From: a virus
Direction: 5' to 3' (one strand)
Length of the DNA: 25,602 nt
IMG/VR virus record: IMGVR_UViG_3300032288_003846
Location: 1 to 25,602 of that record
Shown here: positions 7,289 through 25,602 of the stretch, one piece after another
Layout of the letters: each line of letters starts with the position of its first letter
Numbering within the stretch: position 1 is the stretch's first letter
Made by a program: the position numbers and the translations under genes
The notes under the pieces: generated by a model
Database searches by the model: none
What the model was told of the DNA's origin: nothing
What the model saw: only the letters and a program-made list of their open reading frames with translations

Positions 7289-7351
7289 ATCATGATATAT
7301 TTTTGTAATAGATATTTATTGTAAAGTTAAACAAATAAAAAGGTTTATAGC
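7289..7351 (+). other. 63-bp intergenic gap, A+T-rich
   Basis: This is one of only two gaps over 60 bases. It is almost all A and T, with no GC-rich hairpin or T-run terminator. AAAAGG near 7338-7342 can serve as the ribosome-binding site of the next gene, about 9 bases upstream. No convincing promoter is seen on the + strand. Confidence 0.4.
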
Positions 7352-7789
7352 ATGGATAGTGAAAATTTTTTCAAAAAAATTCGTAGCATAATAAGAGAAG
7401 AAATTGATTATGCTTTAGAAAAAAAAATACCTAAAAATTCTGTTTCCAAATCATCTCAAACAAAAGAAATAGAACACGGAATGAAATTGTATAAAGAACA
7501 ATATAATGGTAAAAAACCTGCGGTAAAAAAACCTACTGCAAGTAATTCTAAATTTAATTCAATACAAGATATTTTGAATGAAACAAAAAGAACATTAAAC
7601 GAAAGCATGGAAATGGAAAGAGAATTTACTTTTACATCAGATATGGCTGAAAATTTTGGTTATTCAAATCAAAGTGCTGCTATTCCACAGGGGTATTCTT
7701 CCAATGATATACCAGAAAATGTAATGGATGCATTGACAAAAGATTATTCGGCTCTTATGAAAGCAATAGATGAAAAGAAAGGGAGATAA
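7352..7789 (+). CDS. Small hypothetical protein upstream of gp25
   Basis: This 145-residue protein is not recognised. The N-terminus (FFKKIRSIIREEIDYALEKK) is a charged amphipathic helix. A Lys-rich, Pro-containing middle (about 45-75) follows, then a second helix (IQDILNETKRTLNESMEMER) and an acidic, helical C-terminus. There is no membrane segment or signal peptide. The gene lies between the large lysin and the gp25 gene, and its TAA is only three bases (a further TAA) before the gp25 start, so the two genes are probably co-translated. It could be a baseplate assembly factor or minor wedge protein, by position only. Confidence 0.75.
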   Translation: MDSENFFKKIRSIIREEIDYALEKKIPKNSVSKSSQTKEIEHGMKLYKEQYNGKKPAVKKPTASNSKFNSIQDILNETKRTLNESMEMEREFTFTSDMAENFGYSNQSAAIPQGYSSNDIPENVMDALTKDYSALMKAIDEKKGR

Positions 7790-7795
7790 TAATTG
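7781..7795 (+). promoter_or_regulatory. Ribosome-binding site that fixes a TTG start
   Basis: GGGAG at 7781-7785 is followed by a 7-base spacer and TTG at 7793-7795. An in-frame TAA occupies 7790-7792, so the gp25 frame cannot begin earlier, and the next in-frame ATG is more than 60 codons inside the conserved domain. The TTG is therefore the likely start. Confidence 0.75.
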
Positions 7796-8296
7796 GCACT
7801 TTATAGAAGAAAACGAGTAGTTGTAAACACCCCTAATGTTGATATTCAATTAACAAAACCAATAGGGATAACCATTCCATTCAATAAACCGAGTGGAATT
7901 TTTAATCAAAGTTTTACAAACCATGAACAAGTTTTTTCTAACTTAAAAAATTTATTACTGACGAATAAGGGTGAACGGTATATGCTTCCAGAATTTGGAA
8001 CAGATATACGAGCAGTTCTTTTTGAAAATATAACAAGTGAAGACGCATTTACAAATTCAATAAATGGGGAAATTGAATCGGCAATATCCGAATGGATGCC
8101 TTATTTGGTAATTACGGAACTCGAAACAACAATTCCATCATACGATCAAAGAATTGATGAACAAGAACATTCCGTGAGAATCAAATTAGTTGTTCAAATT
8201 GGTTCAACAAACATTTATTTACCAATTCAAATACTTATATCTGATACCGGAGAATTAGAAATAAGAGAGGCAGTCTACAATGGCAGATTTAGTTAA
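7793..8296 (+). CDS. 25: Baseplate wedge subunit, gp25/W-type (lysozyme-like fold family)
   Basis: This 167-residue protein is of the T4 gp25 / P2 gpW family, a conserved inner-wedge component that joins the sheath-proximal part of the baseplate to the gp6-gp7 core. The signature is the helix-loop segment NLLLTNKGERYMLPEFGTD followed by IRAVLFENIT (about residues 50-80). The C-terminus has the usual alternating beta pattern (VRIKLVVQIG). The N-terminal 35 residues are an extension relative to T4 gp25 (about 132 residues). The start is TTG, placed by a GGGAG site and an in-frame stop just upstream. The 3' end overlaps the gp6-type gene by 17 bases. Family members are structural despite the lysozyme-like label. 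Confidence 0.93.
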   Translation: MALYRRKRVVVNTPNVDIQLTKPIGITIPFNKPSGIFNQSFTNHEQVFSNLKNLLLTNKGERYMLPEFGTDIRAVLFENITSEDAFTNSINGEIESAISEWMPYLVITELETTIPSYDQRIDEQEHSVRIKLVVQIGSTNIYLPIQILISDTGELEIREAVYNGRFS

Positions 8297-10169
8297 AAAA
8301 GATATTCGTTACTTATCAAGAGATTTTACTTCTCTTAAACAAAATCTTATTGATTTTGCTAAAAATTATTTTCCGAATACATATCAAGATTTTAATGAAA
8401 CATCACCTGGAATGATGTTTTTAGAAATGGCAGCTTATGTAGGGGATGTTTTATCGTATTACACCGATGTTACATTGCAAGAATCAATGATATTACATTC
8501 TAGCGAAAGAACCAATATATTAAACATTGCACAGTCACTTGGTTATATGCCAAAAAATAGAATAGCTGCAACTGTAAGTTTGGATGTATTTCAAATAGTT
8601 CCTGCTATCGCGAGTGGTAGTTCTATTATTCCTGATTATTCTTATGCATTTGCAATAGAACCTGGAATGGTTGTAGGATCGGGAACAGGAACTACTGTTG
8701 AATTTAGAACAATAGATTACATTGATTTCAAATTTAGTAGTAGTTTTGATCCAACAGAAGTTACACCATTTGAAGTTGATGCAAACGGAGAAGTATTATT
8801 TTGGTTGTTAAAAAAATCTGTAAAAGCTGTTTCCGGAACAATACAGGCAATAAATTATGAATTTACGGATCCAAAACCATACGATAAAGTAACATTACAG
8901 GATCCAAATTTAATAGAAATACTATATGGTATAGATTCAGACAATAACGTTTGGTATAATGTTCCATATTTGGCAGTTGATACAATTTTTGATCCGGTTG
9001 TAAACATATCAAGAAATGATAGAACACTATCAAAACACAGAAATGAAACACCATATTTATTAAAGTTAAAAAAAGTTTCTAGACGATTTACCGTTAGAAC
9101 TGTTGATCTTGGAACATATGATATACAATTTGGTGCAGGTGTTTCCGATTTAGATGATGAACTTTTAATTCCAAATCCAGATTTGGTGGGTAATTCATTG
9201 ATTGGAACTGAAACCGCAACATCTGCAGATATTGATCCATCAAATTTTCTTTATACAAAAACTTATGGATTAGCGCCAAATAACACAACACTTACAGTAT
9301 ACTATACAACAGGAAATGGTATAAATGATAATGTTGCAAGTGATACATTAACAAATGTAATAACAAGAGAAATTTTATTAGATGAGACTGGATTGGATCC
9401 AGTTTTATATCAACAGGCGGTTGCGAGTTTAGCAGTAACAAATCCCAATCCTGCTGTTGGTGCAAAGGATTTAGAAGATATAAATGAAATCAGACAAAAT
9501 GCTCTTGCATCTTTTGCTTCACAAAATCGTGCAGTAACAAAAGAAGATTATATTATTCGTGCTTATAGTTTACCAGCAAGATATGGTTCTATTGCAAAGG
9601 CATATATTTCAAAAGACACACAGTTGATTTCAAATGCAATTTACAATAGTGATAGAGTTCAAAATGACTTGGCATTAAATTTTTATGTTCTTGGTTACGA
9701 TTCAAACCAAAAACTTACAATGATAAATGATGCAACAAAAGAAAATTTGAAAACATATCTAAATCACCACAGAATACTTACAGACGCAGTTAATATAAGA
9801 GATGCATACATAATAAACATAGGTATTGAATTTGACGTTATCATATTACCTGATCAAAATAGCAATCAAGTAATTCTTCGATGTATAAATGCTCTTAAAA
9901 AATACTTTGATATAAAAAAATGGCAAATAAACCAACCTATTGTAATAAGTAATATATTTACCGAATTGGATAAAGTAGAAGGGGTTCAAACTGTTGTTGA
10001 TGTAAAAATTAAAAACTTGTATGACACAACTCTTGGTTATTCACAACACGCATATAATATACAAGAAGCAACAAAAGATGGAATAATTTTTCCCTCACTT
10101 GATCCTTCTATATTTGAAATAAAATATCCAGATAATGATATTATTGGTAAAGTGAGGGCATTTGGATGA
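8280..10169 (+). CDS. 6: Baseplate wedge subunit, gp6/J-type
   Basis: At 629 residues this is close to the length of T4 gp6 (about 660). The N-terminus (RDFTSLKQNLIDFAKNYFP, about 14-32, then SPGMMFLEMAAYVGDVLSYY) and the core segment at about 391-423 (AKDLEDINEIRQNALASFAS then RAVTKEDY) are hallmarks of the gp6/P2 J family. In that family the proteins dimerise around the hub and pair with gp7/I to form the wedge core. The C-terminal domain (VEGVQTVVDVKI) also fits. The ATG at 8280 has a strong GAGAGG site at 8265-8270 inside gp25. The stop overlaps the next start as ATGA, so the genes are probably translationally coupled. Confidence 0.93.
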   Translation: MADLVKKDIRYLSRDFTSLKQNLIDFAKNYFPNTYQDFNETSPGMMFLEMAAYVGDVLSYYTDVTLQESMILHSSERTNILNIAQSLGYMPKNRIAATVSLDVFQIVPAIASGSSIIPDYSYAFAIEPGMVVGSGTGTTVEFRTIDYIDFKFSSSFDPTEVTPFEVDANGEVLFWLLKKSVKAVSGTIQAINYEFTDPKPYDKVTLQDPNLIEILYGIDSDNNVWYNVPYLAVDTIFDPVVNISRNDRTLSKHRNETPYLLKLKKVSRRFTVRTVDLGTYDIQFGAGVSDLDDELLIPNPDLVGNSLIGTETATSADIDPSNFLYTKTYGLAPNNTTLTVYYTTGNGINDNVASDTLTNVITREILLDETGLDPVLYQQAVASLAVTNPNPAVGAKDLEDINEIRQNALASFASQNRAVTKEDYIIRAYSLPARYGSIAKAYISKDTQLISNAIYNSDRVQNDLALNFYVLGYDSNQKLTMINDATKENLKTYLNHHRILTDAVNIRDAYIINIGIEFDVIILPDQNSNQVILRCINALKKYFDIKKWQINQPIVISNIFTELDKVEGVQTVVDVKIKNLYDTTLGYSQHAYNIQEATKDGIIFPSLDPSIFEIKYPDNDIIGKVRAFG

Positions 10170-11338
10170 TATATGTAATATACCCAGAAAAAGATGCAAC
10201 AATATACGAAAGAACGGAATCAAAAAATACCGGTCTTGATTCTATATTAGAAGTTTCACATATACTAATTGGCACTGCATCAAGGTATAATAGTAGAGTT
10301 CTGATGAAATTTGATACAAGTCAAATCGAAGAACAAGTGAGTGCAGGAAAAATTCCTGAAAATGCAAGGTACTATCTCATATTAAAAACTGCTGAAGTTA
10401 GAGAAATTCCACAAGAATATACTTTATATGCATATCCTGTATCATCTTCTTGGACAAATGGAACTGGAAGATTTGTAAACAATCCAATAGTAAACGATGG
10501 TGTATCATGGCGATATAGAACATCAGCAAATGTTGGAACAGAATGGGATATACCCCCAACAACTGCTAGTTTAGAATGGGATGATGTATCGGAAACATGG
10601 ATTCAAGATGACGGAATATGGGGAAATAATGTACCAACTGCAACAGTTACATCATCTTATTTTTCAAAAGAAGGTGGTGGAACTTGGTGGGATTACGATA
10701 ATGTTGAATGTACACAATCATTCTCTTTTGAAACACAAGATGTTTATATGGATGTTACATCTATTTTTAGTAAATGGATTACTGGTTCGGGAAGATTTAA
10801 TAACGATGGACTAATTTTGAAGTTTAGTAATGAATTGGAATCTTCGTTTGAAACTATCAACAGTTTGAAGTTTTTTGCAACTGATAGTAATACAATATAT
10901 GTTCCAAGAATCCATGTTATTTGGGATGATCAGTCATTTGTAACAGGAAGTTTAACAGAAGTTGGTGAAAATAGTCTAAACTTAAATGTTAAAATGAAAA
11001 AGTTTTATTCCCAAGATGAAAAGGCAAAAATTAGAATATATGCAAATGAAAGATTTCCACAAAGAAGTTATACAACACAATCTTATCATATGATAAATTA
11101 TCACTTACCGTCTTCATCTTATTACGAAATTAGAGATGCCCACACAGATGAGGCAATCTTGCCATTTAACTCAACTGGTTCAAAAATAAGTTGTGACGAA
11201 AGTGGAAATTATTTCAATCTATGGATGAATGCATTTCAACCTGAAAGATTTTATAGAGTTGTAATAAAAGTTGAAAGAGATGGTGGTGATGTTGTAGAAA
11301 TGTTTGATAATAATTACTACTTTAAGGTTACGAGATAA
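10166..11338 (+). CDS. Putative virion protein with DNRLRE-like N-terminal beta domain
   Basis: This 390-residue protein starts with a pattern like the DNRLRE fold: PEKDATIYE, then NTGLDS and LIGTASRYNSRVLMKFD (residues 7-50). The rest is beta-rich with many aromatic and Ser/Thr residues (SSSWTNGTGRF, EGGGTWWDYD), typical of extracellular or fibre-associated modules. The C-terminal 120 residues (FYSQDEKAKIRIYANE onward) look like a separate Ig-like or jelly-roll domain. There is no enzyme signature. The start overlaps the gp6-type stop as ATGA, and GAGGG at 10154-10158 gives a strong ribosome-binding site with a 7-base spacer. Its place between J and the I-like gene suggests a baseplate-attached decoration, but the DNRLRE match is by eye only. 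Confidence 0.85.
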   Translation: MIYVIYPEKDATIYERTESKNTGLDSILEVSHILIGTASRYNSRVLMKFDTSQIEEQVSAGKIPENARYYLILKTAEVREIPQEYTLYAYPVSSSWTNGTGRFVNNPIVNDGVSWRYRTSANVGTEWDIPPTTASLEWDDVSETWIQDDGIWGNNVPTATVTSSYFSKEGGGTWWDYDNVECTQSFSFETQDVYMDVTSIFSKWITGSGRFNNDGLILKFSNELESSFETINSLKFFATDSNTIYVPRIHVIWDDQSFVTGSLTEVGENSLNLNVKMKKFYSQDEKAKIRIYANERFPQRSYTTQSYHMINYHLPSSSYYEIRDAHTDEAILPFNSTGSKISCDESGNYFNLWMNAFQPERFYRVVIKVERDGGDVVEMFDNNYYFKVTR

Positions 11339-12288: not shown

Positions 12289-15200
12289 ATGAATAATTTT
12301 AGATATTCAAATATAGAAGAAATACTTGCTACCAAAAGTTTTATACGTGGTAACAGATTTAGGGAACAGAATTTAAGAAGAAAATTGGTTGTTCCTATTC
12401 TTAACGCAACTACTGCTGTTGAAGATCCTACCAGTATTGAACTTCATGTTTTTTTAGAAAATGGAACTTATATTGAGGGTGGTTCATTATATGATATTCC
12501 TTTTGTAATAGAAACACGAGAAGAAACTTTTTTAGTAGATGGGGAAAGACGAGTTTATGACCGAAAGTATGCAATAGTAGATGTTCATAAACATTTACAT
12601 GAAAACTTAAAATTACCAACTGGAAAATATAAAATTGTATACAATTTTATGAACAGTTTGGTTGGTGGTCCTTCAAATGCACCAAATAGAGTATTCATAT
12701 CAGATATATCTCCCGATAGAAAAGAATTAAGACTTGCGATAAAACAACTTGAAAATGAATCTGCAAAACAAGAATTAACAAAATTTGTTTTGGATTACTT
12801 AAAAGATTCTTATTATATGCCACCAATAGTTTTGAACTTTGGTGAAAACATGATAGTTGATGTTATCAATGTTGCTACTGACGGTGATGCTAATTTCTTT
12901 TATGTAAAGTTATATGATCCATTGCCGAGAGAAATAGATTTATACTATGAATGTTGGGTTGGAAGACAAACATTAAAACCTTGGATAGATACTGTTGATG
13001 TATTGACACAAGAAGAAGAAAAAGGTATTCCATTTATTAAAGGACCCAATTTTGAAGTAAATTATGATTACTGGTTATCAACGGAAACTGATTACAAATC
13101 ATGGAATGATTTATTATCAACCAATGTTCAAACATCCCAAGAGATATTGAACAGATATGTTCTTAATAGTGGATCGTCAGTAAATCTGAACATTGATTTT
13201 AGAGAGTTTGAAAATTTTGTATTTTATTCATCTGCTGAAGAAAGAGTTGAAAACTTTTTTTACAAAATAGGTTTGGTAGAAAATTACAATACACAACTTT
13301 CTTTATTGAACACTTATACTGGATCAGTAGAGGCAAATGTAACTAAATTAAAAGGTTTGAAAGACAAACTAATATCCGGATTTGATAATTTTGAGAAATG
13401 GTTATACTATGAAACGACTTCAAGTAATTATTATTCATCACAAACTTCATCATCAATTACTCCATATCCAAAATATGAATTGGATATAACTGCAAGTAAT
13501 TACGATATATCAACAAAAGAAGGGAAGTATAATCTATATTCTATATTATCAAATGAAGTTCAAACTTGGTATGAAAACTTAATAGTTTCCGCATCAAACT
13601 ATGATTTGAAAAATTACAATGCATTGAATAAAGCAATTCCAGAATATATCAGAGATGATGGGCAAAGTGAACAATTTACAACATTTGTAAATATGGTTGG
13701 TCATCACTTTGATGTAATGTATTTGTATACCGATCATATATTGCGAAAAAATCAAAGAAAAGAAAATCCAAAAGACGGGTTATCACAAGATTTAATTTAC
13801 GATGCAACAAGAAATTTAGGTTGGACATTAACACATGGAACACAAGCAAAAGATCTTTGGGAATATGCTCTAGGTGTAAGCGGTAGTGGTGAAGCAATTT
13901 GGACTGGCAAAACTATTACAAATAAATATCTTACAAAAACTGATGAAGAAAGGACAAAGGAAGTTTGGAGAAGAATACTAAATACGTTACCTTACGTTTA
14001 CAAAACAAAAGGAACATCAAGAGCAATAAAGGCACTTTTGTCTGCCTATGGTATTCCACAAACACTTTTAACAATTAGAGAATTTGGTGGTCCTGACAAT
14101 GCCGATTTTGGAGATAAACCAAAATTTGAGTGGGAAAAACAAACATACTATCTAAATTTTTCGGGTAGTTATCCTTTACCAACCCATAATCATTATGCAA
14201 GTGTTCCTTGGGAAAAAGTAAATAATGAAAACAGTCAATGGCAATATCCAGATACAGTTACATTTAGATGGAAAATGGAACCAGATAGATTGTATGAATA
14301 TATTTTGGATCCAATACAAACTATATTACAGAAACAGAGTGGAAGCAGAGTAGATTGGTTTGTAACTGCAAATAAAAATGGAACTGATATTGAAAAAGGT
14401 ACTCTTACATTTTATTTGAGCGATGGATCAACATACAAAAGTGCATCGATTACCGATGAATACTTGTATGACGATATTCCGTTAAACATAATGATTCGTA
14501 GATATAGTTCAAACGATACATTATCTAGTAATCAAACATATGATTTTATATTAAAAACTGCAAAGTATGGTAAGATTGCAGTAGAAAGATCAGCAAGTAT
14601 ATCAATAGATGGATCAACCGAATCTTTATTCAATAGAGCATGGTCATCAAATGGGACTTTATTTATAGGTTCTGGATCAAATTTTGAAACTAATAAAATA
14701 CTATCTGGTTCTATATTTGAATTAAGATATTGGACCAATCAACTAAAAGAAGAATCATTTAATAACCATGTTTTGTCTGCACGTGCTTACAACGGAAATA
14801 CTCAAACATCATCATTTTACGACTTACACGGTCAATGGAAATTTTGGCAAAAATTTGATATTGCTGCAACTACAAGTTTAGCAAGTTCACATCCAGACCA
14901 ATCAAAAAATACATTTTATAGTTCATCAAAAGTTGTAAACTTTATTGGTTTTAATTCTGGTGCGTTTGAAAGTATTGTTGAAAACTATAACATGGAAGTA
15001 ATAAGTGTAGGTAATAATACACCTTTTTCGGAAAAAGTTAGAATAGAATCTGCATCTTTACAATCATCATTAAGAATGGACGAATCTTCTGCGGTATCAC
15101 AATTTGATAAATTTTCAATAGATTCTAATAAATTGATGGTTGCATTTTCTCCTCAACATATAATAAATGAAGATATTTATGAGGCACTTGGATATACAAA

Positions 15201-16326
15201 TTTGGATGATTATATTGGTGATTACTACTCAGCAAATTTGTCAGAATATCCTGATCTAAAAAATCTTTCAAATGAGTATTGGAAAAAATATCCGAATAAA
15301 AATGATTTCACGGCATATGTTCGTTTAATTTCTATATTCGATTTTAGTGTATTTGATCAAATTCGTCAGACTTTACCATTGCGGGTAAATGAAATACTTG
15401 GATTAGTAATTGAACCAAATGTTTTAGAAAGATCTAAAGTAAAATTAAACAGAGATTTATCTGCTGAAAATTTTCAATCAATAGATACAAATGATGTATC
15501 AAAAACACCAACACCTTCTGTTTTATTGAATAAAAATAAAACAACTTTAATGATTGGATTTGATGAAAATTTTGGAAGTAATTTTGGTGAAATTTCTACG
15601 GACTACGAAGTGGAAACATCTTTTGTAACAGAGATTGATGAAGCAGAAGGTGAAGGTAATATCGGAATAAATGTTAAGTCTAAATTTCATAATAAATCAA
15701 AAATAAAAACAAAACTTGATGCACCAGTAAAAAAAGTTTCAGGTAGACATAAAAAACCTTTTGAAACATTTTTACAATCCGGTATTAAAAACATAATTCC
15801 TATGATGAAAACGTTGGAAACAACAATAAGTTCAACAAAGGCAAAATTTTCAACAGGACAAATTTGGTTTACACCAACTCCACTTTCAAATGAAAATGTA
15901 CCTGTTTCTGAACAAATTTCACCTGTTGGTATTTCTATTTTACCTAAAGCATCAAATTATATTTTAATTCAAAATAAAACACCAATCGGATATAACACGA
16001 TTGAAAAGAAAACTGCTCACTTTGTGCAAATAGAAAATCAAAGAGAAGATGGTTTTTACAAAACATTTAGTCCAATTTATTCAACGTATGAAAGTTATGC
16101 AAAAGATGAACCAACTTCATATTTATTTATATCATCGAGTCATATGAACTCTGAAAATTTACCAACAGGAACAAAGAATCACAGATTTTTAGGAACAAAA
16201 CTTGCTGGTAAAAATGGTGAAGGAATAAATCAACCTGCAATTCCTGCAGTAACTCCAGATGGTGGTCCAGTTGTTATTGTATTAACATCTAAACTAGAAG
16301 ATGATGTTGTTTACAAAGTGGAATAA
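12289..16326 (+). CDS. Large baseplate/tail protein with P2 tail-protein-I-like motif and LamG-like domain (possible gp7 equivalent)
   Basis: This is a 1345-residue protein. The N-terminal 160 residues form a beta-rich domain of a type seen in large phage structural proteins. At about 557-592 is EVWRRILNTLPYVYKTKGTS, then AIKALLSAYGIP, which resembles the R-R-x-x-x...KGT-x-x-AI-x-x-L-x-x-x-G motif of the P2 tail protein I family (the gp7 counterpart in the wedge). Residues about 657-817 look like a LamG/concanavalin-type beta sandwich (GTLTFYLSDGS, GTLFIGSGSN, GSIFELRYW). At 953-1053 is another shared phage segment (ALGYTNLDDYIGDYY through LGLVIEPNVLERSKV). The C-terminal 200 residues are basic then beta-rich and unrecognised. 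It follows gp25 and gp6 with two genes between. A gp7 role with extra surface domains is inferred. The Shine-Dalgarno site is weak. Confidence 0.85.
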   Translation: MNNFRYSNIEEILATKSFIRGNRFREQNLRRKLVVPILNATTAVEDPTSIELHVFLENGTYIEGGSLYDIPFVIETREETFLVDGERRVYDRKYAIVDVHKHLHENLKLPTGKYKIVYNFMNSLVGGPSNAPNRVFISDISPDRKELRLAIKQLENESAKQELTKFVLDYLKDSYYMPPIVLNFGENMIVDVINVATDGDANFFYVKLYDPLPREIDLYYECWVGRQTLKPWIDTVDVLTQEEEKGIPFIKGPNFEVNYDYWLSTETDYKSWNDLLSTNVQTSQEILNRYVLNSGSSVNLNIDFREFENFVFYSSAEERVENFFYKIGLVENYNTQLSLLNTYTGSVEANVTKLKGLKDKLISGFDNFEKWLYYETTSSNYYSSQTSSSITPYPKYELDITASNYDISTKEGKYNLYSILSNEVQTWYENLIVSASNYDLKNYNALNKAIPEYIRDDGQSEQFTTFVNMVGHHFDVMYLYTDHILRKNQRKENPKDGLSQDLIYDATRNLGWTLTHGTQAKDLWEYALGVSGSGEAIWTGKTITNKYLTKTDEERTKEVWRRILNTLPYVYKTKGTSRAIKALLSAYGIPQTLLTIREFGGPDNADFGDKPKFEWEKQTYYLNFSGSYPLPTHNHYASVPWEKVNNENSQWQYPDTVTFRWKMEPDRLYEYILDPIQTILQKQSGSRVDWFVTANKNGTDIEKGTLTFYLSDGSTYKSASITDEYLYDDIPLNIMIRRYSSNDTLSSNQTYDFILKTAKYGKIAVERSASISIDGSTESLFNRAWSSNGTLFIGSGSNFETNKILSGSIFELRYWTNQLKEESFNNHVLSARAYNGNTQTSSFYDLHGQWKFWQKFDIAATTSLASSHPDQSKNTFYSSSKVVNFIGFNSGAFESIVENYNMEVISVGNNTPFSEKVRIESASLQSSLRMDESSAVSQFDKFSIDSNKLMVAFSPQHIINEDIYEALGYTNLDDYIGDYYSANLSEYPDLKNLSNEYWKKYPNKNDFTAYVRLISIFDFSVFDQIRQTLPLRVNEILGLVIEPNVLERSKVKLNRDLSAENFQSIDTNDVSKTPTPSVLLNKNKTTLMIGFDENFGSNFGEISTDYEVETSFVTEIDEAEGEGNIGINVKSKFHNKSKIKTKLDAPVKKVSGRHKKPFETFLQSGIKNIIPMMKTLETTISSTKAKFSTGQIWFTPTPLSNENVPVSEQISPVGISILPKASNYILIQNKTPIGYNTIEKKTAHFVQIENQREDGFYKTFSPIYSTYESYAKDEPTSYLFISSSHMNSENLPTGTKNHRFLGTKLAGKNGEGINQPAIPAVTPDGGPVVIVLTSKLEDDVVYKVE

Positions 16327-16452: not shown

Positions 16453-16455
16453 ATG
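16438..16455 (+). promoter_or_regulatory. Strong ribosome-binding site of the 16453 gene
   Basis: AGAAGGAG at 16438-16445 sits 7 bases before the ATG. It is the closest match to the anti-Shine-Dalgarno sequence in the window and suggests a highly translated gene and a host that uses Shine-Dalgarno initiation. Confidence 0.8.
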
Positions 16456-17163
16456 GGTTATTTAAGTAATAACGGAACCATAACAGTTGATGCAGTTCTT
16501 ACAAAAAAAGGTAGGGAATTGCTTGCAAAGGGACAGGGTAATTTTAACATTACACAATTTGCACTTTCCGATGATGAAATTGATTACGATTTGTGGAACC
16601 CCCAACACGGCCTTGGTTCTGATTATTTTGGAGTTGTTATTGAAAATATGCCAATAACAGAAGCCGTTCCTGACGAAACACAATCTATGAAATATAAATT
16701 GATAACACTCCCAGCAGGAACACGGGCAATTCCTTACATTGCTGAAATAAATAATTTAACCAGTGTTGATATTTATGGTGCTAATATATCTGCAACATCC
16801 ACAACATTACCAAATAAAACTGTTGCTATATCCACTTACCAGTTTAATGGAACAACAGGAAATGTTTCATTAACAGATGAACAAACATATACAATTACGT
16901 TATTGGATCAATCATATGTTACATTAACAGGATTAAATACAGCAAGACCTGGAAGCGAGTCTGGTAATTCTATAACTTATTCACAGGTTACCGATCGTGT
17001 TGATGAAAAAACTGGACAAAGATCAATGAGTTTTGTAGTTCAAGGAATTCAAATATCAAAATCTTCAACAATAACAACGCCTATTGTTAAAACTACAAAG
17101 TTGATAATAACAAATGAAAAGTTTGGTTCAAGATTGGTATTACCGGTAACATTTACATATTAA
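16453..17163 (+). CDS. Virion structural protein of the kind found in marine T4-like phages
   Basis: This is a 236-residue protein. The N-terminal block (GTITVDAVLTKKGRELLAKG then FNITQFALSDDEIDYDLW, residues 8-50) is a conserved opening of a small structural protein family I recall from T4-like cyanophages and related marine myoviruses. In those proteins the block also reads as 'DAVLT...GR..LA.G.G.F.I..FAL.DDEIDY'. The C-terminal two thirds are beta-rich (Thr, Val, Ile), with no signal peptide or enzyme motif. The function is not established. Abundance in the virion is suggested by the strong ribosome-binding site and the position at the head of a block after the longest gap. Confidence 0.85.
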   Translation: MGYLSNNGTITVDAVLTKKGRELLAKGQGNFNITQFALSDDEIDYDLWNPQHGLGSDYFGVVIENMPITEAVPDETQSMKYKLITLPAGTRAIPYIAEINNLTSVDIYGANISATSTTLPNKTVAISTYQFNGTTGNVSLTDEQTYTITLLDQSYVTLTGLNTARPGSESGNSITYSQVTDRVDEKTGQRSMSFVVQGIQISKSSTITTPIVKTTKLIITNEKFGSRLVLPVTFTY

Positions 17164-17209: not shown

Positions 17210-18379
17210 ATGAGTAATATCTATAAAAAGGTAGACTATACTTTGTCTTCAACTGGTGTTGGTGCTCAAACCATTACTACACCAATAATTAGATCAATGT
17301 GGGATGCTACCACAAGTAATTTATTAACGTTTCATACGAGTTCAACTCAAACAACTTCATCACAACAATACTATTATGAAATATGGAGTTCTGCCACTTT
17401 GACCTGTGATGATGAACGTATGTTTTCAATTACATATGGTCATGTGAGTGGTTCTGGATCACAATATAATAATAGTAATGTAGAAAGTACATCTGGAGAT
17501 ACTCCGTCAAAATCAATATACAATCAATTTAAGCAATTATGTCTTGATGGCGATGAAGGTGGTTTGAAGTTATCTGGCTCTGCAACACCTATTACACATT
17601 TTTATGCTATTACAATAAATCGTGATAAATTTGGCGATAAATTGGATCCAGGTAATTTTCAACTTAATTTAGCAGAATTGAGTGGTAGTGGAAAGGCAAA
17701 CAATGTTCACACCGGTAGTAATGTTGAGATTTCTGGATCAACTCCAAAGATAATTTCATTGATAGATGATTCGGGTGATATAAACAACACAACTGTGGAT
17801 GAAAGTGGAACTTCAACTTCTATTCCAAGATATATTGTTAGTGGTAGTTTATCAGATGGGATCCACAATACATCATCTCCTCATTGTTTTGGTATAGTCT
17901 ATCCAAGTTTGGGGATATTATTACTCGATGCTGATAAATTAAATCTCTCTGCATCATTCAACACGGTTACTGGAAGTAATATATTAGGTGACAATTCATA
18001 TAAATTATTTGTTGCAATGAGTGGTTCTGCTGCAATATATTCATATGGTTTCAATGCTCGTTCTATTGATGTTAAAAATGAATCTCATTATTATGTTAGA
18101 GTTCCAGTAACACAACACGGTTATGGATCAAATAATCCAACATTTGTTTTACCACCCGATACTGTGGATGATCAATCACAATTACCAGCAACAGGATTGA
18201 TTAAATATCCATCATGGAGAGCAAAATCATCAACCGTACCTGGAAAACCAACTGTTTATGTTACAAGCATTGGTTTATACGATAATGAATTGAATTTACT
18301 TGCTGTTGCAAAATTAAATCAACCATTAAGACATGATATAAATGAAGAATTATCAATAACAGTAAAACTAGAGTATTAA
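17210..18379 (+). CDS. Virion protein, copy 1 of a four-member paralogous domain family
   Basis: This 389-residue protein is almost entirely one domain (about residues 40-389) that recurs in three other genes of the window. Landmarks in order are QTTSSQQYYYEIW, FSITYGHVSGSGS, ITINRDKFGDKLDPGNFQLN, KIISLIDDSGD, YIVSGSLSDGI, SFNTVTGS, ARSIDVKNESHYYVRVP and a closing YVTSIGLYDNELNLLAVAKL. The pattern is beta-rich, Ser/Gly-rich and without signal peptide, as in fibre or baseplate proteins of aquatic T4-like phages. AGGA lies 7 bases or so before the ATG. The gene is 46 bases after the 16453 gene and 2 bases before copy 2. The specific function is unknown. Confidence 0.85.
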   Translation: MSNIYKKVDYTLSSTGVGAQTITTPIIRSMWDATTSNLLTFHTSSTQTTSSQQYYYEIWSSATLTCDDERMFSITYGHVSGSGSQYNNSNVESTSGDTPSKSIYNQFKQLCLDGDEGGLKLSGSATPITHFYAITINRDKFGDKLDPGNFQLNLAELSGSGKANNVHTGSNVEISGSTPKIISLIDDSGDINNTTVDESGTSTSIPRYIVSGSLSDGIHNTSSPHCFGIVYPSLGILLLDADKLNLSASFNTVTGSNILGDNSYKLFVAMSGSAAIYSYGFNARSIDVKNESHYYVRVPVTQHGYGSNNPTFVLPPDTVDDQSQLPATGLIKYPSWRAKSSTVPGKPTVYVTSIGLYDNELNLLAVAKLNQPLRHDINEELSITVKLEY

Positions 18380-18381
18380 AT

Positions 18382-19467
18382 ATGAGTTCAGCAGCTTTCA
18401 AAAAATTTGCTAGTGATGCAGTTTCAACATCACAACGTGAAGTAGTTACGGCACCTTTATGGTCAGACGGGTTATCGGAACTGAATAAAATTTCTACAAG
18501 TTCAAACCAAACAGAAAATCAAAAAAGATATTATTATCAAATTTTTAATGATCCCAATTCTGTTGGCGGTGCTCAATCACAGTTTAGTATGGCTTATTGT
18601 GACTCAAAGGGAAGTGGATCATCAACTGGATCATTTGGATATGATCCGTTGGATTATCCAACTAAGGCAAACTATTCTCAATATAAACAACTTTTATTGA
18701 CTAACCAAAATTTGTTTACCTTTCAAAATGGTGAACAATCTGAATATGTTTACGCAATAAATGTTGATAGGGCAAGATATAAAGATAAGATTGATACAAA
18801 CACATGGCAATTAAATTTAGCAGAAATAAATGGAACTGGTAGTGCAAAACTTGGTGAAGTTGTAGTATCTTCTTCAAATAAAATAATTTCTTTGATTGAT
18901 GATTCTGGTGCATCTACCACCGAATTATCAAGTGTTGGTGATAGAGTATATTTTGTTAGAAGTGGTAGTCTTGATGACGGTATAAATACAAGTGATACAA
19001 CTCCTTGGGGATTATTTTATCCAGACCATGGTGTGATTATACTAAACGGAAAAGCTCTTGATGCATCTGCATCTTTTTCAACTGCAAGAACTCCTGCTGG
19101 TTCTGGAACAGAATTTGGTGGTGGTGCTGATAATAATTTTAGATTTTACACTGCAGTTAGTGGTGCTATGGATCTTGAACCTGATAGTGGATCATTTGTT
19201 GCAAAAACATCAGAAGTTATTGCAGCAACGTATTATTATGTTAGAATTTTCAACAACGAACTAAATTATACACAAAATCCTAGTTTTTATTCGGGTAGTC
19301 AAAGTGAATTGAGATGGCCAGGAATGTATAATGATCCAAGAGTTTATGTTACAACCGTTGGTTTATATGATGATTCATTTAACTTACTTGCAGTTGCAAA
19401 ATTGAATCAACCTATTGCAAAGACTTTTGATAAAGAAATTACTATTAAAATAAAACTTGATTACTAA
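18382..19467 (+). CDS. Virion protein, copy 2 of the four-member domain family
   Basis: This 361-residue protein is homologous over most of its length to the preceding gene. Matching landmarks are QKRYYYQIF, FSMAYCDSKGSGS, INVDRARYKDKIDTNTWQLN, KIISLIDDSGA, YFVRSGSLDDGI, SASFSTA, TYYYVRIF and YVTTVGLYDDSFNLLAVAKL. The N-terminal 25 residues differ. In the second landmark, GH of the other copies is replaced by CD. The ATG is two bases after the stop of copy 1, with only a weak ribosome-binding site, so expression probably depends on translation of copy 1. Tandem duplication followed by divergence is the simplest origin. Confidence 0.85.
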   Translation: MSSAAFKKFASDAVSTSQREVVTAPLWSDGLSELNKISTSSNQTENQKRYYYQIFNDPNSVGGAQSQFSMAYCDSKGSGSSTGSFGYDPLDYPTKANYSQYKQLLLTNQNLFTFQNGEQSEYVYAINVDRARYKDKIDTNTWQLNLAEINGTGSAKLGEVVVSSSNKIISLIDDSGASTTELSSVGDRVYFVRSGSLDDGINTSDTTPWGLFYPDHGVIILNGKALDASASFSTARTPAGSGTEFGGGADNNFRFYTAVSGAMDLEPDSGSFVAKTSEVIAATYYYVRIFNNELNYTQNPSFYSGSQSELRWPGMYNDPRVYVTTVGLYDDSFNLLAVAKLNQPIAKTFDKEITIKIKLDY

Positions 19468-19480
19468 GGCAAAATAACAT

Positions 19481-22400
19481 ATGGATATTAAGTATTTTTC
19501 ACCGTCACTTATCGCCTTATTGAGAGCCGCTGGTACTGCGATATGGAATAACGATATTGATATATTGGATCAAAGTATATCTGCTATAAAGTTAGAAATT
19601 GATTCAATGCCAAACACCATTGGAACAACCGTTACTAATTTTGCCGGTTTAACAGGAATGACTACACCAGGTCTTAATACTCTACCTGGTTCTGTTGGAT
19701 TACAAAACAATACTGCAAATCTTACAACTCAACCGAGTGAAAATTTAGCAAAAATTTTATTACAATCATTCAATCAATTATTTAATGTTTATTATCGTTA
19801 TTTAATAGACAATAATCCACTTGCATTGGATTCAAGTATTGCAAGATTTTCAAAATCTTTTGGAGATTGGGCAGAAGAATATAATACACTTTTAGGTGAC
19901 GAACCACTTGGTATAATAAATTCATTTGGAAATTTGGGTGCTTTAGTTCAAAGAGGAGTTGATGCAAATTCTTGGGAATATAAGGCAATGGCCGAATTGA
20001 GAAGAATACTTTTAACCGATAAAGTTCAAGGTAAAAATCCAAGAGATACTGATTTACTTTGGGATGGACCAAGAGCTCCTGGTGGCGGTAGTGGTGGAAT
20101 AAGTGTTACTAACGATCAAAGAAGTCCTGGAGGAGGACAACAATTTACTGCTCCCGATCCAAGAACATTATCAATTCCAGTTGATAATGCAAATAAATGT
20201 ATTTTTTATTTGGAATCAAGACAAGTTCAAAATCCAGGAACAAGAACTGTAATACATAATGGAAAAAGTTATACAATAAACAATCCTTGTGATTTGGAAG
20301 TTAGACTACATCGTTGTTGTTCTATAAATGTTCCGAGAGTAATAGATCCATGTGGAAATGATTTCTCAAATGGAACAGATGTTTACAAGGCAGAAGAAAC
20401 TCATATTGTAATCCCATTTACTAAAATTACAACATCAAAATTATCGTATGTTGTTGAAGATTGTGGTGACGGTAAATCTAAAAAATTAAATTATGAATAT
20501 CATTTCGATTTATCAGAACTAACAACAAATTACAATAATTTGTTAAAAAGATATGACATAATAGTTCCAGATGGTCAAAATCCAAAAGGTAATTGTCAAA
20601 TAACATCAGGAAACCCATTTAACTCTCAATTCAGACAGTTTTCATCTGTAAATTTATTAGATCATATTGTATCAAGAACTATTGATCCAACTGTTTATGC
20701 TTCTGTTGGACCAAATGCAACAAACAGAGGAAAAAAATTAGTAGGTGCATATGCTCCTGATTTATTTTATCTATGTAATTACGCAAGAAATCCACAAGTT
20801 ATACAACCAAGTGGTGATATTGGCGATGTACTTTCTTCTATTGCAGATAAAAGATTTTTAGACAATATAGATAGAACATTTACATATTCAGGTCCACTTT
20901 GGTTAAAATCTATAAAAGAAAATCCATCTGTATTGAGTTCTATTGAAGCTATTATTCGTGGCAATTCTAATGGAAATACAAATGGATCTATTAAAAATTG
21001 GTTCATACAAAATCAAGGTTATACAGACGGACAAAAACTATATTTAGATATACTTGAATTTGATTCACCAATGGTTGATCAAATGTCATATCCATATAGA
21101 GATCCGCTATCGCCAACGCCAATGGATAGGTTGCCTTATTTTGTTGCATCTATTACATCTGCGTGTGGTTCAGTTAGTGATTGTGATAAAATTGATATTC
21201 CAAAAGTTGATTGTAATAAACCTTACAATGATGCTACAAAAAATATACATTGGAAATTAAAAGAATCACCAACAACAACATACAGAGATATAAATGACAA
21301 TACAAATGATTATGACAGTTCATCCGAGCTTTACAAATCATTGAGTATAAATAATCAGTTTGATGGATCAGTAAAAGTTGCAACCGATAAAACATTTAAC
21401 GTTTTTTATGGGGAAAAATCTGTATTAAGGACAACACAAACTGGCGTAGATACACAGAATGTTCCTATACCAGGAAGACCATGTTATATTGGTACATCAA
21501 GACAATATGTTATTGATATAAAAAGACAACAAAAAGTTTATATTGATGTAATTTGTAATACAAATAATGTGCCGGTTGATTATGTTTCATCAACAAACTC
21601 AATATCAAAAAAATTAGAAGAATCTTTATCATCAACCGAAGATTTTTCATTGCCGGCAATAAAAGGTCCTTACGTTCAACACATGGTTTTAGGTGACGGT
21701 AGAGTTGGATCAAAAGATGTTCCTGCATATCCAAATGCCATATTAGATGTAACAAATGGAAAATGGTATATTTGGAAAGATGTTTATGTTCCATTTTATG
21801 ATGAAACCGGTGAAAGATTTTTTACAACTATTATTGCTGATGATAGTATAAGATTTGATAAAACTGGACAAAATTGTTTACCATCAAAAGAAGAATGTAA
21901 TAGATCTGAACCGATTCCTGATCCAACAAATCCTTGTGGATGTACTGATTTCATTATAGAAAAATGTGATGAAATATACGAAGGATTTACTTATATTGAT
22001 GGATTTGGAACTACAAAAATTATTGAAACACAAACTGTTCCAAAACAATTTTTGCCAAATCCAGAATATCCATTTTTAAGTATTACAGAAAGATTGGTTG
22101 CAGCTATTCCGTCTACAAGAGCAGAATGTAATCCATCTTCAATACGGTCTTTCTATCCACTAATTTTTGGATATGATTTATTAACTGCTGTAAAAAAGGA
22201 TTTAATTTTTGGTTTATTTAGTGGTTCACAGTCTCCATCTTGTTATTTAACAAGTTCGGTTCAAACCACATCATCAAAACAATACTATTATGACATAGTG
22301 GATTGTCCAAATAACTGTGATAATAAACCATATTATTCTATTGCATATGGTCATTCTGATGGTTCCGGCTCACTTTCAAATGGATATGATGCGAGTGATA

Positions 22401-23260
22401 CACCAAGTAAAGCGATATATTCGCAGTATAGACTAAAGGCATTAGAAATGCCTACTACAAAATTTACATTTACCGATATTCCTCAAACTGATATGGTTTC
22501 GTTGATAGCTGAATTTACGAATCCAAAAGACATTTATGTATTAAATTTTTATAGAGATAATTTAAGTCATAGATTAGATGCAGGAAATTTTGAAATAAGT
22601 CTTGCAGAGTTAAGTGGTAGCCAGTTTGCAAATAATGTTCATACTGGAAGTAATGTTCAAGTAAGTTCATCAAATAAAATACTAACATTGATTGATAATT
22701 CTGGTGATGCTGATGAAAGTGTTTTGTGTGGAAATGATCCATTTTCAAGTTTTGATATAGTTAGTGGTTCAATTTCAAATGGAATATACAAAGAAAATGA
22801 ATCATCACAAATACCAGTTTATGGAAAAGTATATCCAAATTTAGGCGTTATTGTATTGAATCCTGGAAGATTAAATGATTACTTATCATTCAATACTGTT
22901 ACCGGTAGTGATATTGCAGGTGATAATGCTTGGAAATTGTATACTGCTATTAGTGGTGCAGCTGCTTTAGGTCACAATATGAAAGCCCGTAGTGTAAAAA
23001 CAAAAACTACAAATCATTATTTTGTTAGAATCCCAACTGTTGATGCAAATTATACATCAAATCCAACGTATGTTCTACATACCAATGAAGAAAGTGGTAA
23101 ATTAAAATATGATTGTTTTGTAGATAATCCGGTTACTTACATAACAACTATCGGTTTATACAATGATAGAAAAGATTTACTTGCAGTTGCAAAATTGAAT
23201 AAACCTATAAAAAAGACTTTTGAAAATGATGTTTTGATTAAAATAAGGTTAAATTGGTAA
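19481..23260 (+). CDS. Large cysteine-rich virion protein with C-terminal copy 3 of the shared domain
   Basis: This is a 1259-residue protein. Residues 1-40 (MDIKYFSPSLIALLRAAGTA) and a helical part to about 190 may attach it to the baseplate. A Gly-rich linker (about 200-230) follows, then a long unrecognised region (240-910) holding most of about 24 cysteines, including LHRCCSINVP, CGSVSDC and NPCGCTDFIIEKC. From about residue 914 the shared domain begins (QTTSSKQYYYDIV, YSIAYGHSDGSGS, RLDAGNFEISLAEL, KILTLIDNSGD, DIVSGSISNGI, YITTIGLYNDRKDLLAVAKL). The fusion suggests that the domain is a common connector or tip module. The start has AAGG 11 bases upstream. The stop overlaps the next ATG as TAATG. 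Gp6 and other neighbours are nearly cysteine-free, so the cysteine content is unusual. Confidence 0.85.
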   Translation: MDIKYFSPSLIALLRAAGTAIWNNDIDILDQSISAIKLEIDSMPNTIGTTVTNFAGLTGMTTPGLNTLPGSVGLQNNTANLTTQPSENLAKILLQSFNQLFNVYYRYLIDNNPLALDSSIARFSKSFGDWAEEYNTLLGDEPLGIINSFGNLGALVQRGVDANSWEYKAMAELRRILLTDKVQGKNPRDTDLLWDGPRAPGGGSGGISVTNDQRSPGGGQQFTAPDPRTLSIPVDNANKCIFYLESRQVQNPGTRTVIHNGKSYTINNPCDLEVRLHRCCSINVPRVIDPCGNDFSNGTDVYKAEETHIVIPFTKITTSKLSYVVEDCGDGKSKKLNYEYHFDLSELTTNYNNLLKRYDIIVPDGQNPKGNCQITSGNPFNSQFRQFSSVNLLDHIVSRTIDPTVYASVGPNATNRGKKLVGAYAPDLFYLCNYARNPQVIQPSGDIGDVLSSIADKRFLDNIDRTFTYSGPLWLKSIKENPSVLSSIEAIIRGNSNGNTNGSIKNWFIQNQGYTDGQKLYLDILEFDSPMVDQMSYPYRDPLSPTPMDRLPYFVASITSACGSVSDCDKIDIPKVDCNKPYNDATKNIHWKLKESPTTTYRDINDNTNDYDSSSELYKSLSINNQFDGSVKVATDKTFNVFYGEKSVLRTTQTGVDTQNVPIPGRPCYIGTSRQYVIDIKRQQKVYIDVICNTNNVPVDYVSSTNSISKKLEESLSSTEDFSLPAIKGPYVQHMVLGDGRVGSKDVPAYPNAILDVTNGKWYIWKDVYVPFYDETGERFFTTIIADDSIRFDKTGQNCLPSKEECNRSEPIPDPTNPCGCTDFIIEKCDEIYEGFTYIDGFGTTKIIETQTVPKQFLPNPEYPFLSITERLVAAIPSTRAECNPSSIRSFYPLIFGYDLLTAVKKDLIFGLFSGSQSPSCYLTSSVQTTSSKQYYYDIVDCPNNCDNKPYYSIAYGHSDGSGSLSNGYDASDTPSKAIYSQYRLKALEMPTTKFTFTDIPQTDMVSLIAEFTNPKDIYVLNFYRDNLSHRLDAGNFEISLAELSGSQFANNVHTGSNVQVSSSNKILTLIDNSGDADESVLCGNDPFSSFDIVSGSISNGIYKENESSQIPVYGKVYPNLGVIVLNPGRLNDYLSFNTVTGSDIAGDNAWKLYTAISGAAALGHNMKARSVKTKTTNHYFVRIPTVDANYTSNPTYVLHTNEESGKLKYDCFVDNPVTYITTIGLYNDRKDLLAVAKLNKPIKKTFENDVLIKIRLNW

Positions 23261-23832
23261 TGTCATTACCTGAATCACAAATACTGGCAACTTTGAGCAC
23301 CGAAATAATTTATCCGGTTCCATCTGTATCGTTTTTTAATGAACCATCTAATTTTTTTGAAAATTTTGGTCCTGAATATGTAGAAGATTTCAAAAGGCAA
23401 TTAGAAGGTACTACAATTAAAGATGAATTTTTACCTATGCCTGAAATTGTAACAAAAACAAATACAATAATTGCAAACAAAAGTTCTGAAATTTTTAACG
23501 ATTGTATAAAAGATAATGGATTTTTTGTAAGTAATGAAAAAGATGCCAAAGATTTAATTGCAGCAATTCAAGAGGAAAAAAGAACGCTTGAATTGACTAA
23601 TAATCTACTTGTAGAAGAAGTACAACAATTTGGTAGAGATATTGCACCAATGTCTGGACAAACATTTGATGGGGTATTCCTAAAACAATTAAAGGGCGAA
23701 CAAGTAAACTACGATATATCAGAAGAAACAATACAAAAACTTGCAAATGATTTTGAAGTTGGTTTTGGTACTTTTGATGAATTAGAAAATTATTTTGTTG
23801 GTACAATAAAAGAATTTGGTACAAATGGATAA
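23260..23832 (+). CDS. Hypothetical protein between two shared-domain genes
   Basis: This 190-residue protein is not recognised. I place the start at ATG 23260, which overlaps the previous TAA by one base. An in-frame TTG two codons earlier is possible but less likely. Residues 1-60 are Pro/Phe-rich (YPVPSVSFFNEPSNFFENFG), and 85-135 are helical and charged (DLIAAIQEEKRTLELTNNLL). The C-terminus is acidic and mixed. There is no membrane span, signal peptide or cysteine cluster. Its placement between the Cys-rich fusion protein and copy 4 suggests a small virion or fibre-assembly protein, which is only inference. Confidence 0.78.
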   Translation: MSLPESQILATLSTEIIYPVPSVSFFNEPSNFFENFGPEYVEDFKRQLEGTTIKDEFLPMPEIVTKTNTIIANKSSEIFNDCIKDNGFFVSNEKDAKDLIAAIQEEKRTLELTNNLLVEEVQQFGRDIAPMSGQTFDGVFLKQLKGEQVNYDISEETIQKLANDFEVGFGTFDELENYFVGTIKEFGTNG

Positions 23833-23837
23833 ATGTT

Positions 23838-25118
23838 ATGTTATTAGATTCGTTTAGAATAAATAAAAATGTTCTTGATTTACTTGAGGCATATGTAACA
23901 TTTCAGATGGAAAACGATTTTCCACCTGTAAATAAGATAATAGTTGTAAATGAAACACAACCAAACTCCATTGTCCCCCAAATAAAATTTATCAATGATG
24001 GTTGGTCGGTCACATCGCCATCTTTCAATTTCAAAAAAATAAACTTACAACAAGAATATAAATCACCGTCACCTATGTATAAGTCAAAGGGTTATTTTGG
24101 TTGTACAAATGCAGAAAAATTAGAGAATTTTTATACTGGATCAATAACTTCAAATCACAATAGATACTATCAGACTGTTTATAGTAATCAAACCACATCA
24201 TCAGAATACCGTGAATTTGATATATCTTATGCACATATATCTGGATCTGGATCTTCTTATACAAATGTAATTGGAAACACAACAACAGAATACTTACCCG
24301 CAAAAACAATGTTTCGTAAATACATGATGGATTGTTTTGAATCAACTTCTGGAAAATTTCAATTTAAGAATAATATAAACGGTGATTATTTTTATGTTGT
24401 ACATTTTGACAGAGATTCAATTAAAGATAGATTGGATCCTGGAAATTTTCAAATTACATTATCACCAATAGTATCAAATCCAAATCAACTATACAATACT
24501 GGAAGCAATTTTTATTTTGATACTGGTTCGGATGTTATATTTACTCTAATAGACGATTCAAGTGATGGCAAAGAAAAAATATCTTATACAGAAGATATTA
24601 AAGACCACTATTATTTAGTTTCTGGATCTTTACAAGATGGTATACATGATACTGATGATGCTAATGCTTGGGGGGTTGTATTCCCGAAAAAAGGATTTCT
24701 TATTTTAGATGGGGTTGTTTTAGATCAATCATGCTCCTTTAACACAGTTACCGCTTCTATTCAAGGCGATAATATACAAAAATTATTTTATGCAATAAGT
24801 GGTTCCACATCACCAAATATAGTTAGATCAGACTACGGTGCATGGTATGCTCGTTCATCTGAATTAACATTAGTTGAAACATATTTTTGTAGAGTGAGGG
24901 CTGATGAAATGTCTTATTCCAGTAACCCAACATATGTTAGTGGTAGTAAAAATGAAGTTAGGTTTTTTTCATTTAGAGAAAATCCAAAAGTTGCAATCAC
25001 AACAATAGGTTTGTATAATGATAAAAGAGAACTAATTGCCATTGGTAAAACAAAAAAACCAATAATTAAAGGTAATAAAGATGAATATGTATTTCAAGTA
25101 AGAGTGAGAACAAACTAA
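23838..25118 (+). CDS. Virion protein, copy 4 of the shared domain with a different N-terminus
   Basis: This is a 426-residue protein. Residues 1-80 (FRINKNVLDLLEAYVTFQME and a beta stretch around IKFINDGWSV) have no match in the other copies. From about residue 85 the shared domain follows: QTTSSEYREFDISYAHISGS, VHFDRDSIKDRLDPGNFQIT, VIFTLIDDSSD, YLVSGSLQDGI, SCSFNTVTAS, ARSSELTLVETYFCRVR and AITTIGLYNDKRELIAIGKT. This is the most divergent copy: the closing LLAVAKLN-P reads LIAIGKTKKP. The ATG at 23838 follows the previous stop by five bases. An ATG at 23833 hits a stop after four codons and is not used. The stop overlaps the next ATG. Confidence 0.85.
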   Translation: MLLDSFRINKNVLDLLEAYVTFQMENDFPPVNKIIVVNETQPNSIVPQIKFINDGWSVTSPSFNFKKINLQQEYKSPSPMYKSKGYFGCTNAEKLENFYTGSITSNHNRYYQTVYSNQTTSSEYREFDISYAHISGSGSSYTNVIGNTTTEYLPAKTMFRKYMMDCFESTSGKFQFKNNINGDYFYVVHFDRDSIKDRLDPGNFQITLSPIVSNPNQLYNTGSNFYFDTGSDVIFTLIDDSSDGKEKISYTEDIKDHYYLVSGSLQDGIHDTDDANAWGVVFPKKGFLILDGVVLDQSCSFNTVTASIQGDNIQKLFYAISGSTSPNIVRSDYGAWYARSSELTLVETYFCRVRADEMSYSSNPTYVSGSKNEVRFFSFRENPKVAITTIGLYNDKRELIAIGKTKKPIIKGNKDEYVFQVRVRTN

Positions 25119-25602
25119 TGTCATTTCAATTTGGAAATAATTTAAGCGTTGCTTGGAAGAAATTAAAAGGCGGTGATTATACCGTTAGAACCTTTGAGGC
25201 AAATAAACTATGGCGTTTTGAAACTGTCACTAGTAGTATTTATCATCATGCAAAATATGGAATGAATTTGTATCGTGCACTTTATCCAGAAAATCACAAG
25301 TATTTTGGTAATGTTGCAAATTTAAGTTCATCTCTATATGAAAGAGTTTTTACTACTCAAAGTATTGATCCAAAACTTTTATGGTATTATTTGGATCATA
25401 ACTTTTATACCGAACATGAAAAAGAAAAAAATCCGTTAGATATAACCGATGACAATACTATAACATACCTTTGGCAATCAAGTTCAATTATGGCGTTACC
25501 TATGGGTATGTTTGGTGAGGGAATTAAGGAAGGATCCTTTACCGTAACAAATCACTATCAGTATTCGGCATCAGAAGTTGGGGGAATACCATCTCAATAT
25601 GG
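25118..25602 (+). CDS. Putative tail/virion protein, N-terminal 161 residues (cut by window end)
   Basis: ATG at 25118 shares its A with the TAA of the preceding gene, and the frame stays open through base 25602, so at least 161 codons are coding. The product begins MSFQFGNNLSVAWKKLKGGD and continues with aromatic-rich segments (SSSLYERVFTTQSIDPKLLW then YYLDHNFYTEHEKE) and a probable beta-domain opening (FGEGIKEGSFTVTNHYQYS). It has no signal peptide and no enzyme motif. The tight TAATG coupling and the composition fit another virion protein of the same block. The family is not recognised, and the C-terminal domains lie outside the window. Confidence 0.8.
   Translation, partial: MSFQFGNNLSVAWKKLKGGDYTVRTFEANKLWRFETVTSSIYHHAKYGMNLYRALYPENHKYFGNVANLSSSLYERVFTTQSIDPKLLWYYLDHNFYTEHEKEKNPLDITDDNTITYLWQSSSIMALPMGMFGEGIKEGSFTVTNHYQYSASEVGGIPSQY

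Follow-up and report, generated by a model that had tools for sequence, protein, structure and literature searches.

Why should a contractile-tailed bacteriophage carry, side by side, five genes with one unnamed common domain? The window analysed here, an IMG/VR virus record of 25,602 bases, holds four of these genes and the start of the fifth. The reading that we favour, with slightly better than even confidence, is that their products sit at the baseplate periphery and share one attachment ('fibre-root') domain, and that the two halves of a P2-type root module are divided between these copies and the gene 16453, named here after its first base. The relevant features are:

7793–8293, + strand: baseplate wedge protein of the T4 gp25 / P2 gpW type (PF04965, E 5.9e-10)
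8280–10166, + strand: baseplate wedge protein of the T4 gp6 / P2 gpJ type (phrog_219, baseplate wedge subunit, E 1.9e-21)
12289–16323, + strand: large baseplate protein, 1345 aa, possibly gp7 / P2 gpI-like (operon position; weak gpI alignment)
16453–17160, + strand: 236-aa gene directly 5' of the copies; N-terminus similar to the N-terminal half of the P2 gpH root module
17330–18376, + strand: copy 1, domain residues 41–389 of a 389-aa stand-alone protein (gene 17210–18379); all 325 profile positions matched
18493–19464, + strand: copy 2, domain residues ~37–361 of a 361-aa stand-alone protein (gene 18382–19467), by profile
19481–22243, + strand: N-terminal part of the copy 3 protein, 921 aa, 20 Cys; no Pfam or PHROG family above the curated cut-off in the window member
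22244–23257, + strand: copy 3, domain residues 922–1259, the C-terminus of a 1259-aa protein (gene 19481–23260), by profile
23254–23829, + strand: small 192-aa gene between copies 3 and 4; near relatives only, 11 members found
23838–24128, + strand: extra N-terminus of the copy 4 protein, 97 aa
24129–25109, + strand: copy 4, domain residues 98–424 of a 426-aa protein (gene 23838–25118), by profile
24993–25106, + strand: C-terminal module of copy 4, residues 386–423 (IGLYND...LIAIGK...KP); matches the C-terminal half of the P2 gpH root module
25118–25602, + strand: copy 5 gene, start only, 161 codons ending at the window edge; open reading frame read from the sequence

The common domain comprises approximately 325–350 residues. 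As a sequence-only reading of the window had claimed, it is shared by the genes at 17210, 18382, 19481 and 23838: all four open reading frames are present, and their domains align end to end with a mean column identity of 50%; 55 columns are invariant, the GSGS and GLY motifs among them. BLASTP comparison of all domain pairings gave E values of ~2e-40 to ~4e-71 over ~280–380 residues, which excludes chance likeness. Copies 1 and 2 are the stand-alone proteins that had been described, with almost no extra part. Copy 3 is indeed fused to a part of about 900 residues, although 'Cys-rich' is too strong a term for its moderate cysteine content, and the new N-terminus of copy 4 is present but measures 97 residues rather than about 80. 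The count of four copies was too low: a fifth, diverged copy had been missed, whose start overlaps the stop of copy 4. The window's fragment of copy 5 clusters with the other copies, and its complete relatives in the nearest phages are 571–588 aa long and terminate in the C-terminal part of the domain. One of these relatives (L003:17669–19381) contains a Laminin_G_3 (LamG) lectin domain (PF13385, E 1.6e-17). In Flavobacterium and 484-kb phages, both ends of the diverged copy match but the stretch between them does not; thus, the LamG part looks like an insertion or a replacement.

The genomic setting is that of a contractile-tail baseplate operon, with gp25-type and gp6-type wedge genes beside the copies; further upstream, before these wedge genes, the window encodes a CHAP protein and an endolysin/chitinase-like protein. 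P2 gpI aligned with the 12289 protein at a plausible place, with weak statistics (4.5%). Relatives of the domain occur in contractile-tailed phages, and most of the long records carry T4-type gp23: among 13 records of relatives (the window itself being a 25.6-kb fragment), gp23 was found in nine and a contractile sheath in eight. The wedge genes upstream, gp23 and the sheath in relatives, and the layout of Rhodothermus phage RM378 described below place the copies within the contractile tail operon, where they follow the wedge genes. Several other proteins of the window deserve mention. The product of 10166–11338 is a conserved baseplate-operon protein (median identity 68%) that resembles the carbohydrate-binding module CBM96 (PF24517, E 2.8e-5, just under the cut-off). 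The 1073-aa protein of 4067–7288 opens with an endolysin/GH19-like domain (phrog_181, 2.5e-29), followed by ~900 residues that received no assignment. By eye, the adjoining proteins of 25–915 and 950–3049 have in common a leucine-rich-repeat-like C-terminus, with repeats around LTNLVGGP...CSNN, and neither had a Pfam or PHROG match above the cut-off. Two different operon proteins, those of 25–915 and 4067–7288, contain linkers made of SGT-SGT tandem repeats.

Bioinformatics searches for the identity of the domain returned no well-described protein in Pfam, PHROG, NCBIfam or PDB. Scans of the copies against the first three gave nothing above threshold, the Pfam tail-fibre root family was found in none of 104 domain members in single-sequence scans, and no relative of the domain was found in PDB by sequence, where matches to caspase-3 (E 0.4–0.9) are attributable to chance. 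The AlphaFold2 model of the 23838 protein, built from 104 sequences, has a mean pLDDT of 86. Searched with Foldseek against PDB, it gave a best E value of 0.08 and, among the matches listed, a best probability of 0.51; serine proteases and neck proteins thereby proposed as fold relatives lack support, and no T4 baseplate chain was among the 50 matches listed. The BFVD search yielded 11 matches below E 0.001, all unnamed or of unknown function except two with lectin/laminin-G names. A gpH-domain match was obtained in neither of these structure searches nor in that with the 16453 fold. Literature searches found nothing on such paralogue sets, on Microcystis phage Mel-JY01, or on Far-T4 phages and the baseplate together, and no virion proteomics for these proteins was found. 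The earlier remark that no named structure is built this way holds within what was searched.

The C-terminal end of the domain, in contrast to its body, does resemble a known module. The N-terminal module of P2 gpH (DUF3751), which on positional grounds is regarded as joining P2-type fibres to the baseplate (PMC6363177), was represented by a profile of 13 diverse sequences. In hhalign comparisons, its N-terminal half alone gave 93.8% with 16453, over the match ILTxxGRelL...ITxFAVGD, and its C-terminal half alone gave 91.9% with copies 1–4 and 93.2% with copy 5, over REIGLYDxxGxLIAVAN..KP; the copy 4 type of C-terminal end is also present in copies 1–3. The N-terminus of 16453 is of the ILTKKGRELLAKG..ITQFALSDDE type. 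The whole module gave 89.2% with 16453 and 83.6% with the C-terminal module of the copies, its middle matched no family, and five other families tested reached at most 1.5% with the half-modules. When 19 families from the same loci were scanned with the whole module, the top ranks went to the copies (87.6%) and 16453 (83.3%), followed by two further copy 3 groups (30% and 10%) and by 15 other families at ~1% or less; reversed profiles reached at most 0.6%. As these alignments are short (31 columns for 16453, 38–42 for the copies), the sequence relation to the gpH module is support rather than proof.

In the window, the first half of the module occurs only in 16453 and the second half only in the copies. 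Independent support comes from loci L043 and L214, in which both are joined: phage proteins of 738–740 aa there have a 16453-like start and a copy-like end in one chain, ~640 residues apart; compared directly with gpH, this chain gave 8.5% for the start and 56.6% for the end, from two sequences. Beside the fused 738-aa protein of L043 are short proteins (7029–7397 and 10552–10830) with an LTxxGR...GDSDTNY start similar to the N-terminus of 16453. In 113 of 120 loci, a 16453-like gene lies 8–54 nt 5' of the first copy. Flavobacterium phages match the initial ~96 residues of 16453 with 66.7% identity and do not match the remainder. In the fold predicted for 16453 alone, these ~96 residues have low confidence, whereas the C-terminal half forms beta strands of high confidence; a start that is conserved yet of low confidence would be expected if a partner completes the fold. 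Matches listed for this fold contained no gpH domain and were headed by an unnamed entry, followed by a Dickeya phage tail protein with low TM-scores.

Environmental phages carry this domain family widely, with at least 586 confirmed stretches in IMG/VR; it occurs in hundreds of IMG/VR contigs, seven MAG contigs and few isolates. Among loci that have a 16453-like gene before the copies and extend more than 500 bases past the last one, a sample biased by the searches, 43 have two copies, 26 five, eight one, six three, two four and one seven. The usual relative has a canonical copy followed by a diverged one; the group of the window has five copies in a fixed order across many related phages, and five-copy loci keep all five in that order. 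In a tree of 58 domains, copies 1, 2, 3 and 4 each form one clade spanning 12 phages, Mel-JY01 of Microcystis among them. Support is 100/99 for copy 1 (with copy 1 of 11 other phages), 100/98 for copy 2, and 100/100 for copies 3 and 4; the copy 2 clade branches from among the single canonical copies that two-copy phages have. Since each is closest to the same-position copies of other phages, copies 1–4 are ancient paralogues of separate descent. A larger quick tree placed extra copies in L054, in L055/L069/L058 and in L097 outside the five-copy groups; therefore, expansion of the domain appears to have occurred more than once. At L097:9734–20037 and L098:3639–13942, seven consecutive copies with unusually long branches seem to have arisen by an independent expansion.

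The domain evolves at the pace of core baseplate proteins. Its median identity between phages is 53–60%, compared with 53% for the 12289 family, 52% for 16453 and 72% for gp6, while the N-terminal parts of copies 1, 3 and 4 reach 26–31%. For copy 3, the median is 26% for the N-terminal part versus 55% for the domain. Homologues of this part range from 516 to 1034 aa, and several of their cysteines are nearly invariant; family searches detected Ig/ASH (Cep192/HYDIN-type) modules in few relatives and nothing else, and this patchy presence suggests that the part is exchanged between phages. The N-terminal part of copy 4 is ~100 aa in near relatives and 189–676 aa in some others.

Because the end of the domain resembles half of a P2-type fibre root, these genes probably encode a family of plugs that attach parts to the tail. 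In the favoured reading, the conserved C-terminal beta module of the copies would be related to the second half of the gpH root module, and the first half would be supplied by 16453, directly upstream. The start of 16453 and the end of a copy may thus meet in one fold, which would be the attachment face, and each paralogue would plug, via its C-terminal end, into the baseplate or the 16453 protein. What differs would be the outward part: nothing extra on copies 1 and 2, a 97-residue arm on copy 4, the fast-evolving 921-residue part on copy 3 and the LamG lectin on copy 5, and we infer that copies 3 and 5 contact the host. Against this reading speak the shortness of the gpH matches, the failure of the searches above to find a Pfam tail-fibre root family or a structural match to a gpH domain, the C-terminal rather than N-terminal place of the attachment end, and the ~240-residue body of the domain, for which it offers no explanation. 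The earlier proposal of hetero-oligomeric parts with a common joining face is supported in part, insofar as the operon, the fixed ancient paralogues and the gpH half-match indicate a set of virion parts with one attachment domain; the hetero-oligomer, ring or branched fibre of that proposal is a candidate arrangement only. A common joining face is plausible, with support from the gpH half-match, and different copies may join in one assembly. Rather doubtful is a bolder version, in which the root module was split into two genes and its second half multiplied into four to seven paralogues that form a heteromeric baseplate belt, joined by the common half and each bearing a different host-facing part.

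Three other explanations were weighed against attachment through a divided fibre root. The copies might be peripheral wedge proteins like T4 gp8–gp11, mainly structural and without fibre-root kinship, the IGLYD motif being chance or a very general beta-hairpin. Their position after gp25/gp6-type genes, as T4 gp7–gp12 come after gp6, and a conservation like that of core baseplate parts would suit this explanation, but the Foldseek search of PDB gave nothing convincing, no sequence match was found, and the gpH half-matches are specific within the operon; we regard it as unlikely.

Alternatively, the copies could be separate receptor-binding proteins that never meet, that is, independent fibres or lectins on the same plug, with copy number reflecting host-range breadth. 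The LamG lectin in copy 5 relatives, the fast N-terminal parts of copies 1, 3 and 4, and a copy number that varies (1, 2, 3, 4, 5, 7), with more expansions outside the five-copy group, point in this direction. However, copies 1 and 2 have almost no extra part, and the fixed order of all five suits one assembly better, leaving this explanation with a low probability. Four adjacent copies within 8 kb might also suggest recent tandem duplication for gene dosage, with no separate roles. This is rejected by the trees, in which the same-position copies of other phages are the closest relatives and constraining the four window copies together lowered the log-likelihood by 836 (p-AU 1.6e-93); its likelihood is negligible. 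The divided root, in two neighbouring genes, remains our preferred reading. If it is true, it would explain how several different host-facing parts are mounted and would provide a sequence handle for finding the receptor-binding proteins of these phages. For all the spread of the family, the searches found neither a Pfam, PHROG or NCBIfam model nor a solved structure of it.

Among known systems, true homologues are found in RM378, the reference Far-T4 phage (PMC4360716), and in other Far-T4 phages. In RM378, the 16453-like gene p129 directly precedes a single canonical copy, p128, compared with five copies in the window; both are annotated only as hypothetical. In Mel-JY01 (190 kb), a 16453-like gene precedes all five copies, which keep the order of the window; its copy 4 has a longer N-terminal part (409 aa), and all its copies are likewise annotated as hypothetical. 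T4 gp8–gp12, several different proteins at the baseplate rim, also come after gp25/gp6-type genes but differ from the copies in that no structural or sequence match, and no fold shared with gp8–gp11, was found. A further close parallel is P2 gpH, whose root module (DUF3751, also in R-pyocins and P2-like fibres) occupies the same operon slot, after W- and J-type genes; in the P2 order W-J-I-H, the copies take the fibre slot, as H does. Yet, important differences are present. P2 keeps both halves together in the N-terminal module of its long fibre, whereas the window has them in separate neighbouring genes, and the attachment end is N-terminal in P2 but C-terminal in the copies, after a ~240-residue body and in five paralogues. 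Since the defining one-chain N-terminal root module is absent from them, the window genes are not members of the gpH family; their probable kind is tail fibre attachment at a contractile-tail baseplate. If the divided-root reading is true, Far-T4-like baseplates would be linked to P2-type fibre attachment.
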